The position numbers were made by a program, and so were the translations under genes. DNA of 64,000 nucleotides from contig JAEURQ010000004.1 of assembly GCA_016788425.1 (NCBI GenBank), forward strand, positions 372,001 through 436,000, given 5' to 3'. The notes beneath the pieces were generated by a model that made no database searches, had not been told where the DNA came from, and worked only from the letters and a program-made list of their open reading frames with translations. The DNA comes from Chthonomonas sp. Lineage in GTDB: Bacteria; Armatimonadota; Fimbriimonadia; Fimbriimonadales; Fimbriimonadaceae. Numbering within the stretch: position 1 is the first letter of the stretch; each line of letters begins with the position of its first letter. This document shows, one piece after another, positions 21,822 through 31,953 of this stretch.

Positions 21822-23495
21822 GTGACGCGAAAGGCGTATCCTCTTTACGTGAGTGCGTTGCGCCGATGGGCCTATGTTTTGATCCCGACTGCGGTTTTGG
21901 GAGGGTTGGTCTACCAGCGCGTGCAGGCGAAAAAGGCCGACGAAGCCACCGAGAAAAAAGAGCAAGCCGGGCGCCGAGGCGGCGCCGCCGCGGTCGAAAT
22001 CGCCATCGCCCAAGCCCGCCCCCTCATCAATTCCGTTCAGGCAGTGGGCTCGGTGGTCTCGCCATATTCGGTGGGGCTGAGTCCGCGCGTCGCGGGGCGC
22101 ATCACATTTTTGGAGGTGCGCGAAGGTGACCCCGTGAAGGCGGGGCAGGTGCTAGCTCGCATCGATCCCAGCGAAGCCAACGCGAAGGTCTACGAAAATC
22201 AGGCGAGCGTCAGCGAAGCGCGCAGCCGCCTGGCCCAAGCCCAGGCCACCGTGCAGTCCAATCAGATTCAAATTGAGCAGAACATTCGCCAGGCGCGCGC
22301 CGAGCTAGCCAGCGCCCAAGCCGCCTACACGCAGACCAAAACCGCCAACGAGGGAGCGCTTTCCGATGCGCGGGCGACGGTCGCGGCGGCCCGTGCCGAC
22401 CTCACGGCCAGCAACGCTCTGCTCAAAAACGCCGACGCCCAACTTGTCGCGGCGCGGGCGCAACTAACGAATCAGCAAACTAATCTCAAGCGGTTGCAAA
22501 GCCTGCTCGAACTCGGCTACGTCGCCGCTCAAGAGGTGGATGACGCCAAAACCGCCGTGGCTTCGGCCCGGGCCGACGTCGAAGTGCGGCTCGGTTCGGT
22601 CGAGTCCGCACGCGCGGCAGTTTCCCGCAGTCAGGCCGAACTCAACGCCGAGAACACCCGGGTCAACACGATCACCGCGTCGGGCCGCGCCGAGCTAAAA
22701 GTTGCCCAAGCTCGCATCGACCAAGCGCGGGCGTCGCTTACCCAAGCCGAGGCGAATCGCGCCCAAACCCCGGCCTACCAAGAGAACATCAATGCCCTTA
22801 GGTCGGGCGTGGATGCCGCCGAGGCCCAGCTCAAGGTCGCCCGGGTCGGGCAAAACGATACCGAACTACGCTCCCCGATCGCGGGATCGGTCACCGCCCG
22901 TAGCGGCGACCCCGGCAGCCTCGCCTCGCCCTCCACGCCGGTGCTCAAGGTCGAGTTTCTCAATTGGCTGTTCATCAACGCCACCCTGCCGCTCAGCGAA
23001 TCCGGCAAGATCGTAAAGGGCTTGCCGGTTGAAATCACGCTCGACGGGCTGAAGGACCAAATTTTCAGCGGGCAGGTGGACCAGGTGGTCCCCAGCGCCG
23101 ACGCCACCGACCGACAATTTTTAGTGAAAATCCGGATCGAAAACCCGGATCGCGTCATTCGGCCCGGCATGTTCGCGCGAGTCAACATCGAGGTGGATCG
23201 AATCGAGGCGAAGGTCGTGGTGCCTAACGACGCGGTGACGAACGGCAAGGTCATGGTGGTGGACGCGGAGGGCAAGGCAACTCAACGCGAAGTCAAAGTC
23301 GGACGCACCAACCGCAACGACGTTGAGATTCTCAGCGGCCTCAATGTCGGCGAAAAGGTGGTGGTGCTTAGCTTCAGCCAGGTTCGCGATGGCGGCAAGG
23401 TCAACATCACCGCCGAGCGCCTGAGCGATGGCACGCGCCGCCCGATTGAGGCGCCCAAAAAGGCTCCCGGAGGTCGCCCCGGTGTCGGTCGCTAA
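21822..23495 (+). CDS. RND efflux membrane-fusion (periplasmic adaptor) protein
   Basis: The adaptor joins an inner-membrane RND pump to an outer-membrane channel. The 557-residue protein has one N-terminal membrane helix (WAYVLIPTAVLGGLVYQRV), a split lipoyl domain (SPRVAGRITFLEVREGDPVKAGQVLARIDPSEA and later ELRSPIAGSVTARSGDPG), a long alanine- and glutamine-rich coiled-coil hairpin between them (about 100-340), then beta-barrel and membrane-proximal domains. The hairpin is unusually long for an MFP of this class. GTG at 21822 follows GGAGAACAAA. It overlaps the pump gene by 14 nt. No TolC gene is in the window. Confidence 0.9.
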   Translation: MTRKAYPLYVSALRRWAYVLIPTAVLGGLVYQRVQAKKADEATEKKEQAGRRGGAAAVEIAIAQARPLINSVQAVGSVVSPYSVGLSPRVAGRITFLEVREGDPVKAGQVLARIDPSEANAKVYENQASVSEARSRLAQAQATVQSNQIQIEQNIRQARAELASAQAAYTQTKTANEGALSDARATVAAARADLTASNALLKNADAQLVAARAQLTNQQTNLKRLQSLLELGYVAAQEVDDAKTAVASARADVEVRLGSVESARAAVSRSQAELNAENTRVNTITASGRAELKVAQARIDQARASLTQAEANRAQTPAYQENINALRSGVDAAEAQLKVARVGQNDTELRSPIAGSVTARSGDPGSLASPSTPVLKVEFLNWLFINATLPLSESGKIVKGLPVEITLDGLKDQIFSGQVDQVVPSADATDRQFLVKIRIENPDRVIRPGMFARVNIEVDRIEAKVVVPNDAVTNGKVMVVDAEGKATQREVKVGRTNRNDVEILSGLNVGEKVVVLSFSQVRDGGKVNITAERLSDGTRRPIEAPKKAPGGRPGVGR

Positions 23496-26400
23496 GTTCT
23501 CTGTTACTCGTCCGGTCGCGGTCACCATGCGCATCGCGGCGCTCGTGCTGCTCGGCGCGGTGTGCTTCCTGCGACTGCCCGTCGACCTGCTTCCGCGGGT
23601 TGATCTGCCCATCATTTCGATCAACACCAACTGGCCGAACACGCCGCCGCAGGAGATGGAAACGCAGATTACGCGGCCCATTGAGCAAGCGGTTTCCACC
23701 GTGCCCGGCCTGTATAGCGTCTCGAGCACCAGCGAACTCGGGCAAAGCTCGGTGCGGGTCACCCTGAACTACGGGGTGGACATCAACCAGGCGGCGGTGG
23801 ACGTGCTGCAATATGTGCAACGGGCGTACCGCTCGTTCCCGACGAATCCCGAGCTCACACCGCCGGTCGTGTTCAAGCTCGACCCGAACACGTTCCCGAT
23901 TCAAATCATCGCGGTGGCCGGCGAAAACGACCCGATCAAGCTCCGCACGTTGCTGCAAAACGAGGTCGCGCCGTTCATCGAGGCGGCCGGCGGCGTTGCC
24001 CAAGTCAGCATCAGCGGCGGTCGCGAGCGCGCCATCATCGTCGACGTCGATCCCGATAAGCTGCAGGCGTTCAACGTCAGCCTCACCGAGGTTGTCGCGC
24101 GCATCCGGGCCGAAAACATCAGCGTTCCGGCGGGCCTCGCGCAGGTTGGCGAAAAGGAATATGTCATCCGCTCGACGGGCTATTTCAGCACGATCGAGGA
24201 TGCCAAGAATACGCCGATTCGGAGCGACGGCGGACGGCAAGTACTGCTTCGCGACGTGGCCGACGTGCGCGACGATGCCCGCGAGCAACGCGTGTGGACT
24301 CGCGTGCAGGGTCAGCCTGCGGTCGGCATGACCATCACCAAGCAGGGCGACGCCAACACGATCAACACGGTGACCAACGTGCAAGCCAAACTGCGCGAGG
24401 TCGAGCAGCGCTATCCGCAGCTCAAATTCTCCACGGTTTACGATCAGTCCGGGTTCGTTAAAGAGTCCATCACGCTGCTGCAAGAACACGCCATCATCGG
24501 CGGAACGCTCGCCATCCTGGCGATTTTGTTCTTCCTGCGCAATCTGCGCTCGACGCTGGTCGTGGCGCTTTCGATCCCCATTTCCATCACCAGCACGTTC
24601 GCGCTGATGTACTTCTGCGGGTTCACGCTCAACACCATTTCGCTCAGCGCGTTGGCGCTCGCGACCGGTTTGATTGTGGATGACGCGATCGTCGTGCTGG
24701 AGAATATTTTCCGGCACATTGAGCGCGACAAGCGGTCGGCGGTGGACGCCAGCATCAGCGGAACGACGGAGATCATGCAGGCGGTGGTCGCCTCGACGCT
24801 CACGGTCATGGTCGTGTTCGTGCCGCTCTTCCTCATCCAGGGGCAATCTGGCCAGATTTTCACCCAACTCGCGCTGGTCGTCATCTTCTCGCTGGCGGTT
24901 TCTCTGCTCGACGCGGCAACCGTTGTGCCCATGCTCGCGTCGCGGGTCATCAAAGAAAAAGAAGTGGTGGACCTGGAGCATCCCGAGGAGCAACTTGGCA
25001 GCCGCAGCCTCGGCAAGCGCATGGCTGGTTGGGTCGGCACCAAGTTTCTCAACTTCGAAAAGGGGTACCGCGCCACGCTGCAAAAGTCGCTGCGTCGGCC
25101 CTGGATGGTGTTGCTCGCCGCAGGCGCAGTGACCCTCGCCGTGTTGCCGCTGTGGCCCTTGGTCGGTTCGGAATCGTTGCCGCAGACCGACTCCGGCGAC
25201 ATCAACCTGCGCGTCCGTCTTCCGGTCGGAACCGCGCTCACCACGACCCAAGCCAAGATGGACGAGGTCGAAAAAGTCCTGCTCGCCGAGAAGGATATTG
25301 ACGTGTTCTTCATGTCGGTGGGGGCGGGAATCTCGTTCCGGGGGAGCGTCGGGGGAGCGAGTGGCAACTCCGGGGCGGCCAACATTCACCTTAAGGAAAA
25401 TCGAACCTCGACCACCGAAGAAGTCGTGAAGCGACTGGAGAAACAGCTGCAGAAGATCAGTGGCATTCGCGCCACCGCGAACCCGTTTGACCTCGTCGCC
25501 AACATCATTGGCGGGAACAACCAGGGCATGCAGATTGACGTGTTCGGCACTGATATCACCCAGCTTAGCCTCGCCGCCGAACAGGTGAAGGAGGCGATTG
25601 CCGACGTGCCGGGTCTGCAAGGGGTGGATGTGAGCGTGGAGGACGCGACGCCCGAATTGCAGTGGCGCGTGGATCGTCAGAAGGCGCAGGCGCTCGGCAT
25701 CAGCTACCAAGATATTGCCTCGGCCATCGGGGCGAGCACCAACGGCACGCTCAGCACCTACTTCCAGCAAGATGGATTCCAGTATCCGATCTATGTGCAG
25801 CTCCCGGTAAACAAGCGCCGCGCGGTGGATGATCTCGTGCAGATCCCGGTGAAGAAGACCGAGCGCGGAACCACGATTCTGCTGGGGCAGGTTGCCGAAC
25901 CCGTCATCACCGGCGGACCCAACGCCATCAATCGCCTCAACCGTCAGCGCTATGTCACGGTGGGCGGACGCCTTGCTGAGAGGTCCGAAAGCGATGTGCA
26001 AGCCGACATTGAGAAGGCGCTCGCCAAGGTCGAATTGCCGTCCGGCAACTATTGGCAGTTTGGCGAACGCCAACGCCGCAAAGCCGAGGAATTCAGCGGG
26101 TTGGGGCTGGCGGTTCTGCTCGCCATCACCCTCATCTACATGCTGCTGGCGTCGCAATTTGAGAGCTTCATTATGCCGCTGGTCGTGCTGACAACGGTGC
26201 CGCTTTGCGTGGTCGGGGTAATCCTCGCGCTGTTCCTCAGCGACCGCGCGTTTGGCCTCACTGCGTTTATCGGCCTGCTCATGTTGGTGGGCATCGTCGT
26301 GAAAAACGGCATCCTGCTCGTCGAGTACACCAACCAGCTTCGCGCCCGCGGCATGCCTCGCGACGAGGCGATTCTCACCGCCGCGCCAACTCGCTTGCGC

Positions 26401-26691
26401 CCGATTCTGATGACCAGCGTTGCCGCCGTGCTCGGCATGTTGCCGCTGGCGCTGGCGAGTGGGTCGGCCAGCAAACTGCAAGCCCCGCTGGCGACGGTCG
26501 TCATCGGCGGCCTTACCACGAGCACCATTCTCACGCTGTTTGTGGTGCCGGTGGTGTACGCGTTCTTCGACAATCTCACGCGGAGAGCCGGCGGTCACGA
26601 CCGTGATTTGGCGCGCGCGGTCGGCGTCGAGCCGAGCGCGGCTTCGACTGGTCCGAGCGACGGCGATGTCCCCGCCGGGCCGCGATCTTGA
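23482..26691 (+). CDS. RND-family efflux pump (AcrB/MexB-like)
   Basis: A 1069-residue inner-membrane proton antiporter with duplicated halves, each with a first helix, a large periplasmic loop and a bundle of helices. The start is VSVAKFSVTRPVAVTMRIAAL (GTG at 23482, GGAGG 8 nt upstream); the helix 4 motif ALATGLIVDDAIVVLENIFRHIE holds the paired proton-relay aspartates. The C-terminal half has GLAVLLAITLIYMLLASQFES and GIVVKNGILLVEYTNQLR, normal for HAE1-type drug pumps. Substrate is unknown. The minus-strand frame opposite is a coding shadow. Confidence 0.92.
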   Translation: MSVAKFSVTRPVAVTMRIAALVLLGAVCFLRLPVDLLPRVDLPIISINTNWPNTPPQEMETQITRPIEQAVSTVPGLYSVSSTSELGQSSVRVTLNYGVDINQAAVDVLQYVQRAYRSFPTNPELTPPVVFKLDPNTFPIQIIAVAGENDPIKLRTLLQNEVAPFIEAAGGVAQVSISGGRERAIIVDVDPDKLQAFNVSLTEVVARIRAENISVPAGLAQVGEKEYVIRSTGYFSTIEDAKNTPIRSDGGRQVLLRDVADVRDDAREQRVWTRVQGQPAVGMTITKQGDANTINTVTNVQAKLREVEQRYPQLKFSTVYDQSGFVKESITLLQEHAIIGGTLAILAILFFLRNLRSTLVVALSIPISITSTFALMYFCGFTLNTISLSALALATGLIVDDAIVVLENIFRHIERDKRSAVDASISGTTEIMQAVVASTLTVMVVFVPLFLIQGQSGQIFTQLALVVIFSLAVSLLDAATVVPMLASRVIKEKEVVDLEHPEEQLGSRSLGKRMAGWVGTKFLNFEKGYRATLQKSLRRPWMVLLAAGAVTLAVLPLWPLVGSESLPQTDSGDINLRVRLPVGTALTTTQAKMDEVEKVLLAEKDIDVFFMSVGAGISFRGSVGGASGNSGAANIHLKENRTSTTEEVVKRLEKQLQKISGIRATANPFDLVANIIGGNNQGMQIDVFGTDITQLSLAAEQVKEAIADVPGLQGVDVSVEDATPELQWRVDRQKAQALGISYQDIASAIGASTNGTLSTYFQQDGFQYPIYVQLPVNKRRAVDDLVQIPVKKTERGTTILLGQVAEPVITGGPNAINRLNRQRYVTVGGRLAERSESDVQADIEKALAKVELPSGNYWQFGERQRRKAEEFSGLGLAVLLAITLIYMLLASQFESFIMPLVVLTTVPLCVVGVILALFLSDRAFGLTAFIGLLMLVGIVVKNGILLVEYTNQLRARGMPRDEAILTAAPTRLRPILMTSVAAVLGMLPLALASGSASKLQAPLATVVIGGLTTSTILTLFVVPVVYAFFDNLTRRAGGHDRDLARAVGVEPSAASTGPSDGDVPAGPRS

Positions 26692-26735
26692 CCCCCGTTG
26701 CAAACCTGCCGCAGGCCGTGCAAGAATAAAAGCCA

Positions 26736-26810
26736 GTGAAGTTTTCACTCAACGCCCTGCATCATCATCACGTCAACGCGATCCATCCGCGCCGCGGTAG
26801 CAGGCTGTAA
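26736..26810 (+). CDS. hisL: Histidine operon leader peptide
   Basis: GTG at 26736 opens a 24-residue frame, MKFSLNALHHHHVNAIHPRR plus four more residues, ending TAA at 26808-26810. It contains four consecutive His codons (CAT CAT CAT CAC) and a fifth soon after, 5 of 24 residues. It lies 90 bp before hisI, with an intrinsic terminator between. This is the layout of a his attenuator: a ribosome stalling on His codons when charged tRNA-His is scarce would let the anti-terminator form. The frame was found by eye; its ribosome site (AAGAATAAAAG) is weak. Analogous to enterobacterial hisL, not homologous by sequence. Confidence 0.8.
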   Translation: MKFSLNALHHHHVNAIHPRRGSRL

Positions 26811-26840
26811 ATCACCCTCGTTTTCCCAACGAATCAACAG

Positions 26841-26870
26841 ACCCCCCGCCCAGCGCGGGGGGTCTTTTTT
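26841..26870 (+). terminator. Histidine attenuator terminator
   Basis: The 9-bp perfect stem ACCCCCCGC (26841-26849) / GCGGGGGGT (26855-26863) with a 5-nt loop is followed by C and six T. It stands 30 nt after the hisL stop and 29 nt before hisI, on the same transcript, so it is best read as the regulated terminator of the leader. CCGCGC inside hisL (26787-26792) is complementary to GCGCGG at 26853-26858 in the terminator 3' side, a possible anti-terminator pairing. Confidence 0.8.
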
Positions 26871-26899: not shown

Positions 26900-27271
26900 A
26901 TGAAACTTGACTTTGACAAACTCAACGGGCTCGTCCCCGCGATCGTTCAGGACGCCGCAAGCGGCGAAGTCCTGATGGTTGCCTTTATGAACCCCGAGGC
27001 GTGGGCCGCCACTCGCGACTCGGGCTTCGCGACGTTTTGGAGCCGTTCGCGCGGCCAGCTCTGGCGCAAAGGCGAAACCTCGGGCCACCGCCTGGAGGTG
27101 CTGGAAGCGCGCACCGATTGCGACTTTGATGCGGTGGTGCTGCGGGTTCGGGCGATCGGCCCCGGAGTTTGCCACGAGGGCTTCCGCAGCTGTTTCGCCA
27201 AGGTGTTGCAGGGCGAGGAGTGGGTTGTGGACCAAACCCTGGCGTTCGATCCCGCCGAGGTGTACGCATGA
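26900..27271 (+). CDS. hisI: Phosphoribosyl-AMP cyclohydrolase
   Basis: It opens the purine ring of phosphoribosyl-AMP, step three of histidine synthesis, and is zinc-dependent. The 123-residue protein shows [16 protein letters not shown], then [25 protein letters not shown], the Asp and Cys zinc and magnesium ligands of HisI. It is the single-domain form; the HisE pyrophosphohydrolase domain is not fused and no hisE lies in the operon. First structural gene after the leader. Stop overlaps hisG (ATGA). Confidence 0.93.
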
Positions 27272-28137
27272 AGCTCAAGCTGGGAATCCCGAAGGGCAGC
27301 CTCGAAGCAGCGACCATCGAGCTGTTTCGTCGGGCTGGTTTCAATATCTCCATCCGCACGCGCAACTATTTTCCGAGCATTGATGATCCCGAGATTGAGT
27401 GCATGCTCATCCGCGCTCAGGAGATGGCGCGGTACGTGGAGAAGGGCATCCTCGATGCCGGCCTGACCGGCGCCGATTGGGTCGCCGAAAGCGAGGCTGA
27501 CGTGGTGCCGCTTGCCGACCTGATTTATGCTCGCCAAAGCTTCGGCAAGGTGCGCTGGGTGCTCGCGGTACCGGAAGATAGCCCGATTACCCGGGTGCAG
27601 GATTTGGAGGGCAAGACCATCGCCACCGAACTCGTCGGCGCGACCCGTCGGTACTTGCAGAGCTACGGCGTGAACGCGCGCGTGGAGTTTAGTTGGGGCG
27701 CGACCGAGGTGAAACCGCCCACACTGGCCGACGCGATTGTCGAGGTCACTGAGACCGGTTCTTCGCTGCGGGCGAACAATCTGCGCATCGTGGAAACCGT
27801 GCTGGAATCTAACACCCAGCTCATCGCGAACCCGGTCGCGCTCGCCGACGATCGCAAGCGCAAAAAGCTGGAGGACCTGACCCTCTTGCTGCAATCCGCG
27901 ATCGAGGCGATCGGCAAGGTCGGCCTGATGATGAACGTGCCCAAGGCAAGTTTGGCCGCCGTGCTCACCGAGCTTCCCGCGCTGAAGCGACCCACAATTT
28001 CTTCGCTGAGCGACGACGATTGGGTTGCGGTCAACACCGTGCTGGACGAAGCTACGGTGCGCCAAATTATCCCGCGGCTCCGCGCCGCGGGTGCGGAAGG
28101 AATTGTCGAGTACGGCCTCAACAAGGTGGTGCCGTGA
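27268..28137 (+). CDS. hisG: ATP phosphoribosyltransferase (long, HisGL form)
   Basis: First enzyme of histidine synthesis, condensing ATP and PRPP. The 289-residue protein has [17 protein letters not shown] at the start, then [10 protein letters not shown], and the PRPP loop [14 protein letters not shown]. About 80 C-terminal residues after the catalytic core match the length of the HisG_C regulatory domain that binds histidine, so HisZ is not needed. The start ATG overlaps hisI; the upstream frame is ignored. Confidence 0.95.
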
Positions 28138-29372
28138 GGATCGTTGATATGGCGGGGGCGCGCAAGATTCTCGCTCAACGCGAGCTGATTTCGGACGAAG
28201 CCGAAGCCGTTGTCGAGCCGATTTTGGCCGCCGTCCGCGATCGCGGGGACGACGCGGTTCGCGAGTTCGCCGCGCGGTTTGACGGGTTCGCCGGCCCGTC
28301 GTTTACGCGCAAAGTAGTTGACCTGACGCCGACCGTGCCGTCCGATTTGGAGGACGCTTTGCAGGTGGCGGCGGGCAACATTCGCGCCTTCAGCCAAAAG
28401 CAACGGCCGCAAGGGTTCATGACCGAACTTGCGCCGGGGCACCGCGTCGGGCAGGTGTTGCGGCCCTTGTCGCGCATCGCAGCGTACGTTCCCGGTGGGC
28501 GCTATCCGTATCCGAGCACGGCACTGATGACCGCGATTCCCGCCCGGGTGGCGGGCGTTGGTGAGGTGTGGCTGACGACGCCCCAGCCGACGCCCGCGGT
28601 GGAACGCGCCGCCCAGATTGCGGGCGCGGACGCCATCGCCACGCTTGGTGGCGCGCAGGCTATTGCGGCGTTTGCCTTCGGAACCGAAACGATCCCCCAG
28701 GTGGACAAGATCGTCGGGCCGGGCAACGCGTACGTGACCGCGGCCAAAAAGCTACTCGCGGGGACGGTGAGCATCGACTTTTTGGCGGGTCCGACGGAGG
28801 TTGTAATCGTCGGTTCGCAAGGCAACCCCGCCTGGATCGCGGCGGACCTCCTCGCTCAAGCCGAGCACGATGCGACGGCATCAGCGATCTTCATCACGAC
28901 GTCGGCCCAGTTGGCCGTGCTCGTGCAAGCCGAGGTCGCGCGCCAGCTGGCGACCCTGCCGACCGCGGCGGTGGCCAAGCAGTCACTGGCGCAAGGCAGC
29001 TTCATTGCCGTGGTGCCGAGCCGCTCCGCGGCTCTGGATTTGGCCAACGAGATTGCCGCCGAGCACCTTTGTTTGCTCGATCCGGAAGACATTGATGACA
29101 TCCAGCACGCGGGAAGCATCTTCATTGGGAGCACTAGCCCCGAGGCGGCGGGCGACTACGTGACCGGGCCGAACCACGTGCTGCCGACGGGCGGCGCGGC
29201 GCGGCGACATGGCGGGCTGAGCGTGATGGACTTTCTTCGCGTGGTGACTGTCCAGCAATTGTCTCCTTCCGCCCTGGCCAACGTGGCCAGCGCGGGAGCG
29301 CGGTTGGCGCGCGCCGAAGGGTTAGAAGGCCACGCCCGAAGCATCGAGATTCGACAGGGAGAACCCGTATGA
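28134..29372 (+). CDS. hisD: Histidinol dehydrogenase
   Basis: The last two oxidations of the pathway, histidinol to histidine with NAD. The 412-residue protein shows [41 protein letters not shown], and the zinc-linked HDATASAIF and [11 protein letters not shown] segments. The start is GTG at 28134 overlapping the hisG stop (GTGA); ATG at 28149 would cost five residues. Length is slightly below the usual 430, mostly at the N-terminus. Confidence 0.95.
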
Positions 29373-29956
29373 GGATCGCAACCAGAACCAGAAACACCAC
29401 CGAAACCCAGATCACCGGGTCGCTGACGATTGAGGGCGGGGGTCGGGCCCAAGTGGACACCGGAATCGGATTTTTGGATCACATGCTGCAGCTATTTGCC
29501 CGGCATGGCGGGTTCGATCTGAGCTTGAAGGCGACGGGTGACCTTCATGTGGATCAGCACCACACGGTGGAGGATGTCGGCATCGTTATCGGCGAGTTGT
29601 TCGACGCCGCGCTCGGCGACCGGCGCGGAATCAACCGGGCCGGATATTGGGTGCAGACCATGGATGAGACTCTCGTTGTGGTTGCCCTTGACCTCGGGGG
29701 CCGAGCCAGTTGCGTCTACACCGATGGAATTCGTGCCAAAACGTTAGGGGGCCTAACGGTCGAGACGGTGCCTGATTTCTTCGAAGGCTTCGCGCGGGCG
29801 GTCCGAGGAAACGTCCACGTCAAAGTGCTCTATGGGCGCAGCAGTCACCACCGACTAGAAGCGGTGTTCAAGGGTTGGGCAAGGGCCATGCGGTACGCGT
29901 GTTCGCTTGATGCGAGCCTCAAGGACCAACTGCCCTCGACCAAGGGGTTGCTATGA
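29369..29956 (+). CDS. hisB: Imidazoleglycerol-phosphate dehydratase
   Basis: Dehydrates imidazole glycerol phosphate. The 195-residue monofunctional enzyme carries the two manganese-binding motifs, [13 protein letters not shown] with [11 protein letters not shown] near residues 32-72, and the second set [18 protein letters not shown] near 150-170. Length is exactly that of bacterial HisB without the phosphatase domain, so histidinol-phosphatase must be elsewhere. ATGA overlaps link it to hisD and hisH. Confidence 0.96.
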
Positions 29957-30513
29957 TCGGGATTCTGGACTACGGGGCGGGGAACCTTTTCTCGCTCGAA
30001 AACGCCTTCCGCCACTTGAATCTCGCGACCCGTCGCGTACGGCTCGACGAATCGTGGGACGACTTAAATCGCATGGTCCTGCCTGGCGTCGGGCACTTCG
30101 GCGCAATGATGCAGGCGTTGGGCACCGCCGGGGCGGAGCGGTTGCGAGCCTTCGACCGGCCCTTGCTCGGAATCTGTTTGGGCATGCAGGCCCTGTTCGA
30201 TTCCAGCGAGGAAGCGCCCGGACAATCTGGTTTGGGCTTGCTGCGTGGCGACGTGAAGGCGTTTGGCTGCGGCGTGCGCACGCCGCACATGGGTTGGGCG
30301 CGGGTTCAATTTGGGGCGCAGGAAGATTGGTTTTACTTTGCGAATAGCTACGCCGTGACGCAGAGCGACGCGGCGTGGGGCATGGCCGAACACGGCCACC
30401 CGTTTGTCGCCGCCGTGCGCTCAGGCCGGGTAACCGGCGCGCAGTTCCACCCGGAAAAGTCCGGCGCAGCCGGGTTGGAATTCATGCGGAGGTGGGCCAC
30501 CGATGCCGGCTAA
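29953..30513 (+). CDS. hisH: Imidazole glycerol phosphate synthase glutaminase subunit
   Basis: Class I glutamine amidotransferase that passes ammonia to HisF. The 186-residue protein contains [12 protein letters not shown], the nucleophile in [12 protein letters not shown] (about residue 77) and the catalytic His-Glu in QFHPEKSG (about 166-173). Slightly shorter than usual (about 200). Overlaps hisB by ATGA and hisF by 11 nt, consistent with a stoichiometric complex. Confidence 0.95.
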
Positions 30514-31261
30514 GCGCATCATTCCTTGCCTGGATGTCACCGGTGGGCGGGTGGTCAAGGGCACCAATTTCGTGGACCTGCGCGACGCCGGCGACCCGGT
30601 TGAACTCGCCGCGCGGTACTCCGCGGAAGGCGCGGATGAGATCGTGTTCTTAGATATCGGGGCAACGCCAGAAAGTCGGCAGAGCCTCGTCGACGTGATC
30701 GCGGCGACGGCCCGAGAAGTGTTCGTCCCGCTCACGGTTGGTGGCGGCGTGAGATCGGTGCCGGACGCTCGCCGCCTGTTCGAAGCCGGCGCGGACAAGG
30801 TGGCCGTGAACACCTCGGCGGTGCAGAATCCTGAGCTGATCTCCGCACTCGCCGAGGCGTTAGGTCGGCAAGCGGTGGTGCTCGCCATCGACGCGCGGCG
30901 GGTGGACGACAGTTGGCAGGTGGTGACGCACGGCGGCCGACTCGGCACCGATTTAGACGCTGTGCATTGGGCCGCCGAAGGGGTGCGACGCGGAGCGGGC
31001 GAGATTTTGCTGACCAGCATGGATGCCGACGGGGTGCGGAGCGGCTTCGACATTCCGCTGACCGCCGCGGTTTGCGATCGCGTAAATGCGCCCGTCATTG
31101 CCAGTGGCGGTGCGTCGGGTCCGGCGAGCTTTGTTGAGCTCTTTCAGCAAACCGATTGTGAGGCCGGTCTCGCCGCGAGCATCTTTCACCTTGAAGGCAT
31201 GCGCGTCGGCGAGGTCCGCGCGGCGCTTCGCGCCGCGGGAATTGAGGTGCGCCCAGCATGA
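30503..31261 (+). CDS. hisF: Imidazole glycerol phosphate synthase cyclase subunit
   Basis: The (beta/alpha)8 barrel that makes imidazole glycerol phosphate and AICAR. The 252-residue protein starts [21 protein letters not shown] and shows the first phosphate loop LTVGGGVRS, the catalytic aspartate in LAIDARR and the late DADGVRSGFDIPLT region. Start ATG overlaps the end of hisH by 11 nt; stop overlaps hisA by ATGA. Confidence 0.97.
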   Translation: MPAKRIIPCLDVTGGRVVKGTNFVDLRDAGDPVELAARYSAEGADEIVFLDIGATPESRQSLVDVIAATAREVFVPLTVGGGVRSVPDARRLFEAGADKVAVNTSAVQNPELISALAEALGRQAVVLAIDARRVDDSWQVVTHGGRLGTDLDAVHWAAEGVRRGAGEILLTSMDADGVRSGFDIPLTAAVCDRVNAPVIASGGASGPASFVELFQQTDCEAGLAASIFHLEGMRVGEVRAALRAAGIEVRPA

Positions 31262-31953
31262 TCATTCCTTGCATTGACCTGATGGGCGGGCGGGTTGTCC
31301 AGCTTCGTCAGGGTCGCGATTTGGTCTTGGAACGCGACCTGGCCGAGACCATAGCCGCCTTCGCGGGGTTCCCGCTGTTGCATGTGATTGACCTGGACGC
31401 GGCGCTGGGTCTGGGCGATAACGCGGGCATGGTTGAGCGTGTTGCGGCCAACTTCACGGTTCGCGTGGGCGGCGGAATCCGGTCGGTCGCGGCGGCGAAA
31501 GCCGCGGTAGCAGCCGGGGCCAACCAGGTGATTTTGGGTTCGGCGGCGTTTCGCGATGGCCAGCCCGACCAGGCCTTTGTGCGAGTGGTCGCCCGCTCGA
31601 TTGGGCTCGAACGCGTGATCGTTGCGATTGATTCACTCGGCGGCAAGATCGCGGTGAAGGGGTGGCGCGAGACGCTCAAGCTATCGCCCGCCGAAGCTAT
31701 GGCCGCCTTCGAGCCGGTGTGCGCGGGCTTTCTGTGCACGTGCGTGGATCGCGAAGGGAAGCTGGGCGGCACCGATCTGGCGTTGTTCGCCGATTTGCGA
31801 GCACAAACCACCAAGCGTTTGGTGGCTGCGGGAGGCATTACCACGATTGCCGAAGTAGAAGAGTTGAGCCGCCAGCGGATTGATGTGGCGCTTGGCATGG
31901 CGATTTACCAAGGGCACTTAAATCTGGAGGAATTGCGGAGGCTAAATCAGTGA
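31258..31953 (+). CDS. hisA: ProFAR isomerase
   Basis: The Amadori-type isomerase preceding HisF/HisH. The 231-residue barrel starts IIPCIDLMGGRVVQLRQGRD, with catalytic Asp8, then RVGGGIRSVAAAKAA and the second half GFLCTCVDREGKLGGTDLAL and AAGGITTIAEVEEL. Distinct from a bifunctional PriA by its place beside hisF, although the TrpF function cannot be excluded from sequence alone. Last histidine gene; hisC and hisE are not here. Confidence 0.95.
   Translation: MIIPCIDLMGGRVVQLRQGRDLVLERDLAETIAAFAGFPLLHVIDLDAALGLGDNAGMVERVAANFTVRVGGGIRSVAAAKAAVAAGANQVILGSAAFRDGQPDQAFVRVVARSIGLERVIVAIDSLGGKIAVKGWRETLKLSPAEAMAAFEPVCAGFLCTCVDREGKLGGTDLALFADLRAQTTKRLVAAGGITTIAEVEELSRQRIDVALGMAIYQGHLNLEELRRLNQ

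Follow-up and report, generated by a model that had tools for sequence, protein, structure and literature searches.

What controls the histidine operon in a Chthonomonas sp. of the Fimbriimonadaceae (Armatimonadota) is the question raised by a short region within the 64,000 nucleotides of DNA analysed here (the window). A complete operon in the order hisI-G-D-B-H-F-A, gapless and ending at 31953, is preceded by a short His-rich frame and a hairpin (Table 1), which an earlier note had interpreted as ribosome-mediated his attenuation. Control of this kind, in which leader peptides attenuate amino acid operons, has been reported mainly in Proteobacteria, Actinobacteria, and some Firmicutes (PMC2965389, PMC9413887). 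No his leader peptide has been found in the open literature for Armatimonadota, and none is described there for Acidobacteria his operons; broader attenuation surveys may list some. The interpretation is supported by homologous leaders and by mutually exclusive RNA folds, and the element is very probably, as judged from its sequence, an attenuator that controls transcription of the histidine operon through a translating ribosome and would sense charged tRNA-His.

Table 1. Features of the his leader and operon in the window, and ileS leaders from other Armatimonadota genomes (locus and contig handles given for the latter).
Feature	Position	Strand	Remarks
Candidate promoter	26698-26727	+	-35 TTGCAA 26698-26703, 18 nt, -10 AAGAAT 26722-26727
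Putative hisL leader peptide gene	26736-26810	+	GTG start, 24 codons, MKFSLNALHHHHVNAIHPRRGSRL; TAA stop 26808-26810; architecture kept across 43 leaders
Segment 1	26752-26760	+	Predicted to pair with 26800-26808 (overlapping segment 2) without a ribosome; protector/pause hairpin
Putative sensor His codons 9-12	26760-26771	+	CAT CAT CAT CAC, consecutive
Fifth His codon (codon 17)	26784-26786	+	
Segment 2, antiterminator 5' strand	26794-26808	+	Predicted to pair with 26837-26849
Segment 3, antiterminator 3' strand and terminator 5' arm (shared)	26837-26849	+	
Intrinsic terminator, segments 3:4	26839-26870	+	AGACCCCCCGC-CCAGC-GCGGGGGGTCT; 11 bp, loop 5, stem 26839-26865, then T6/T-run to 26870; covariation in homologues
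hisI, phosphoribosyl-AMP cyclohydrolase, first operon gene	26900-27271	+	NF000768 above cut-off
hisG	27268-28137	+	Above NCBIfam cut-off
hisD	28134-29372	+	Above NCBIfam cut-off
hisB	29369-29956	+	Best E 1e-68, one model over its cut-off
hisH	29953-30513	+	Above NCBIfam cut-off
hisF	30503-31261	+	Above NCBIfam cut-off
hisA	31258-31953	+	Reading frame and translation only
Candidate ileS leader (L092/L147)	G192:C168:1529-1680	-	MSQSVFPITSIIIIITPAVSRGRCWSARK, terminator-like hairpin
Candidate ileS leader (L237)	G196:C396		MNRRAILIASIIIIIDPAVSRERCWTSGG, terminator-like hairpin
Candidate ileS leader (L241)	G190:C159		MTRAQRQPIIIGITWGP, terminator-like hairpin

The 24-codon frame noticed earlier, with four consecutive His codons and a fifth nearby, is present in the sequence, and the terminator lies 29 nt before hisI, as had been stated (from the end of the U-tract at 26870 to the ATG at 26900). 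The order of frame and terminator also holds, with the 30 nt given for the gap between them corrected to 28 nt from stop codon to stem; the hairpin, described before as a perfect 9-bp terminator, is indeed a terminator, of 11 bp and a predicted folding energy of -24.5 kcal/mol. Runs of four His codons (CAYx4, CAYCAYCAYCAY) occur at 45 sites on both strands of the 2,665,745-base genome, and a terminator within 160 nt downstream has been found at one of them, the site before hisI. A scan of 0.87 Mb, a third of the same genome with 98 terminators, was made for short frames before a terminator in which four of five codons specify His, Trp, Phe, Ile, Leu, or Val, and its only biologically sensible match is the hisL frame; no convincing leader for another amino acid was found in this third, and a second His match looks like the His-rich C-terminus of an ordinary protein. 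The combination of a His run and a terminator before hisI is beyond chance, given the 43 leaders of like architecture described below.

This uniqueness of the CAYx4 run with its terminator bears on a different explanation, according to which the hairpin would be the constitutive terminator of the preceding gene, the His frame would be accidental, and hisI would have its own promoter downstream. The preceding gene, coding for an RND efflux permease, is on the same strand and ends at 26691, only 45 nt before the leader, and a TATAAC located 5 nt before hisI could belong to such a promoter; however, this motif has no good -35 partner and is absent before hisI in three homologous loci (L002, L031, and L032). 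Furthermore, the gene 5' of the leader varies among genomes (in L037 the neighbouring frame appears on the opposite strand) while leader and terminator stay with hisI, which assigns the terminator to his and makes a constitutive permease terminator very unlikely. The whole permease gene is also covered by an antisense open frame of 1113 aa (23407-26748, minus strand), probably a shadow of GC-rich codon usage.

Relatives of HisI were collected both in whole genomes of the order and in GTDB contigs, and a His-rich frame with a terminator has been found upstream of the homologous hisI, as the earlier note had proposed to check. It is present in the Fimbriimonadaceae G001 (same genus), G012 (L003), G148, G170, G171, and G173, as well as in five named Acidobacteriota contigs and two Acidimicrobiia-like actinobacteria; other Fimbriimonadales carry a different hisI in other surroundings, with no His leader. 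Altogether 43 leaders were inspected in detail (7 from Fimbriimonadaceae, 34 from Acidobacteriota, and 2 Acidimicrobiia-like), always directly before hisI. In 35 dereplicated leaders the peptide has 21-28 codons (median 24) with 4-9 His (median 7), the last clustered His is 8-15 codons from the stop, and the stop is 17-38 nt from a stem of 8-17 bp, which in the homologues is followed by a T-rich tract. Both spacings, from His to stop and from stop to stem, are those required for discrimination by the ribosome footprint, and support attenuation. A first covariance model (R1) at E up to 1e-5 detected the element in 31 of 396 Acidobacteriota genomes, and each of the 29 matches inspected was a His-rich leader, 21-28 codons long, immediately upstream of hisI; with E allowed up to 0.1 the same model returned mostly bare terminators. 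The improved model (R2), clean at E up to 1e-4 in Armatimonadota and in the inspected Acidobacteriota matches, matched one place per genome in 89 of the 396 Acidobacteriota (22%), a lower bound, like all R2 counts, owing to strict filters, and no independent test of specificity, R2 having been partly trained on these genomes. Ten further matches of this group were inspected, and every one was a His leader located before hisI or before a hisI-like frame. Specificity is instead tested by the results in Actinomycetota and Armatimonadota: R2 gave no confirmed leader in 396 Actinomycetota (the single marginal match is not a leader) and eight matches in 291 Armatimonadota, seven of them his leaders, all in Fimbriimonadaceae, and one an ileS leader. 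The extension of the known range is wider than the earlier note suggested, and of another kind, since it concerns mainly Acidobacteriota and, within Armatimonadota, seven Fimbriimonadaceae genomes.

If these leaders act as attenuators, alternative RNA structures are expected, and mutually exclusive ones were in fact found by folding the window leader. With a ribosome masked at His 9 or His 12 the predicted fold is the 2:3 antiterminator; with the ribosome at the stop codon the terminator arm is free and the terminator forms; and in the RNA without ribosome the 1:2 hairpin and the terminator are both predicted. A ribosome stalled at codon 17 leaves the 1:2 pairing, so that the fifth His is probably no contributor to antitermination. 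Over the 35 dereplicated leaders, comparison with dinucleotide shuffles gave a pooled p of 7e-20 for 2:3 complementarity between the 3' part of the leader and the terminator 5' arm, and of 5e-5 for 1:2 pairing around the His codons, values that overstate certainty, since the shuffles ignore coding constraint and dereplication leaves some relatedness. The 2:3 complementarity reached p<0.1 in 69% of these leaders; in the window alone it has p 0.04, and a second measure, equalled by 11 of 200 shuffles, gives 0.055. For the window on its own the 1:2 hairpin did not surpass shuffles (p 0.69-0.75), nor was it significant over the first 14 leaders (p about 0.1). Terminator covariation is seen in 32 sequences as two-sided changes at six of nine pairs, and none of 500 shuffles scored as high. 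By its pooled p, the complementarity between leader and terminator (the antiterminator) is strongly selected. The conserved pairing is not on the side previously supposed: CCGCGC (26787-26792) could pair with the terminator 3' side (GCGCGG, 26853-26858), but this pairing is not conserved in relatives, where it is the 5' arm that is used. The window antiterminator adds only about -4 kcal/mol, against the -24.5 kcal/mol of the terminator, and folding of the full-length RNA favours the terminator even when a ribosome is stalled on it; thus the antiterminator would have to win kinetically.

The position of the promoter adds a further element. Among 35 homologues, 31 have a TAnnnT hexamer whose end falls 7-12 nt ahead of the leader start (against 3.2 expected from shuffles, and 1 in a control window), and TTGACA is common further up; the spacing between -10 box and start codon is 6-11 nt. 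The window promoter is a weaker match than those of the homologues (8 of 12 positions, with a poor -10), its -10 is separated from the leader start codon by 8 nt, and no Shine-Dalgarno sequence precedes the GTG. Transcription would begin some 0-4 nt ahead of the start codon. Since the promoter is fixed in relation to this codon, the leader peptide is probably translated from leaderless or near-leaderless RNA. A small hairpin (26736-26748) in the window fold could cover the leader start codon and, like the poor -10 and the missing Shine-Dalgarno sequence, counts against the mechanism.

Sequence and comparison establish the leader, the terminator, the operon, the selected 2:3 complementarity, and the conserved spacing; for transcription start, translation, stalling, and the response to histidine, we infer the following course. 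RNA polymerase would begin at the leader start codon or a few nucleotides from it, closely followed by a ribosome that would translate the (near-)leaderless peptide of 24 codons. When charged tRNA-His is scarce, the ribosome would stall at codons 9-12 and mask segment 1; segment 2, thus freed, would pair with segment 3 before the terminator 3' arm is made, and this antiterminator would let transcription continue into hisIGDBHFA. Under plentiful histidine, the ribosome would reach the stop, 13 codons past the last clustered His, and cover segment 2, with formation of 3:4. Without any ribosome, the 1:2 hairpin would hold segment 2, and the terminator would also form.

Control by histidine might alternatively be exerted by a T-box or a metabolite riboswitch, with an incidental leader ORF. 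T-boxes do regulate his genes in Firmicutes and Actinobacteria (PMC9413887), and one Armatimonadota genome has a T-box-like leader before ileS (L236, see below). Nevertheless, Rfam release 15 gave no family at threshold, T-box included, in the window, in 10 homologous his loci, or in the ileS-leader locus L092; the best match in the window was Leu_leader RF00512 (30.7 bits against 50), while His_leader RF00514 was not among the window matches up to E 5 and had none at gathering in the relatives searched. Moreover, the leader RNA of about 135 nt is nearly all ORF, antiterminator, and terminator, and what is conserved is the His codons, so a T-box or riboswitch appears extremely unlikely.

Leaders of another specificity were encountered in three Armatimonadota genomes of other families, in the form of Ile-rich ORFs upstream of ileS (Table 1). 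A hairpin encloses the Ile codons in two of them (G192 and G196), and no Rfam match was obtained for the Ile leaders before ileS, which are candidate ribosome-mediated attenuators of isoleucyl-tRNA synthetase. The T-box-like leader of L236 (G191:C1:3668800-3669600; GGGTGGTAACACG and a terminator), recognized by eye and below the Rfam gathering threshold, precedes a second ileS in a genome belonging to the family of G192; T-box and leader peptide may possibly have been exchanged on the same gene.

Another option is translational control, either by reinitiation of the leader ribosome at hisI or by a 3:4 hairpin blocking hisI initiation. Leader genes close to structural genes may indeed raise translation via reinitiation (PMC4833913), but here some 90 nt lie between the leader stop and hisI. 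After the stem comes a T-run (in the homologues, a T-rich tract), and hisI in the window has no Shine-Dalgarno sequence that a hairpin might cover, all of which renders translational control very improbable.

As an attenuator, the element is of a known kind; new would be the lineage that carries it, how large the family is, and the probably leaderless start of the peptide. It resembles hisL of E. coli, Salmonella, and other gammaproteobacteria (RF00514) in the ORF with consecutive His, the antiterminator/terminator switch, and the location before the his operon. It differs in its lack of an Rfam match at threshold, in the probable leaderless start, and in an operon that begins with hisI, hisG being the first gene of the E. 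coli his operon. The peptides described here (21-28 codons, 4-9 His, and 8-15 codons from the last His to the stop) also differ from that of E. coli, with 18 aa and seven consecutive His (PMC3896937). Candidate his attenuators have been described by comparative genomics in the Bacillus cereus group, Peptostreptococcaceae, and Erysipelotrichales (PMC9413887), and likewise comprise a His-rich leader peptide, a terminator, and an alternative antiterminator; they belong to another phylum, and the likeness is one of described architecture. In bacilli, hisS leaders are known as well (PMC2965389). With regard to the start codon at or next to the transcription start, the closest examples are actinobacterial: the ilvBNC transcript of Corynebacterium glutamicum begins a single nucleotide away from the start codon of its leader (PMC11857589), and leaderless poly-Cys attenuator ORFs have been reported for mycobacteria (Canestrari 2020, as cited in PMC13236596). 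These ORFs differ in amino acid and genes, and the leaderless start of hisL is read from promoter position only.

As to origin, a tree was built from 88 HisI proteins, and one of its clades, with 48 members (support 100/99), contains all 43 whose operons carry the leader; the leader label needs three changes on the tree, against a shuffle average of 29.6. The remaining five members are a contig cut just before hisI and four Bacteroidota, in which no His leader was found upstream of hisI. The HisI of other Fimbriimonadales, some from the window's own family, lie outside the clade; Fimbriimonadaceae have two separate hisI lineages, one operon-borne with leader, as in the window, and a commoner one elsewhere (L004-L030). 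Given this single clade, operon and attenuator seem to have been inherited together, and the most likely route into Fimbriimonadaceae is horizontal transfer, with Acidobacteriota as the probable source, a direction taken from prevalence only and beyond the resolution of the tree (123 columns). We lean slightly toward the wider proposal that a his operon cassette with a leaderless attenuator has spread between phyla, among Acidobacteriota, Fimbriimonadaceae, and Acidimicrobiia-like actinobacteria. If this is true, the transfer of regulator plus pathway would be functional immediately in a new host, because such an attenuator needs only the ribosome, tRNA-His, and RNA polymerase.

Almost none of the attenuators predicted earlier in Acidobacteria had a function (PMC2965389). 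The leaders described here would provide a predicted one for an attenuator in about a fifth of the sampled Acidobacteriota genomes, for whose his leaders a covariance model is now available for annotation. The probable leaderless start raises the question of how a leaderless ribosome keeps step with the polymerase, and the link between the HisI clade and the leader makes the co-transfer of a pathway and its regulator testable.
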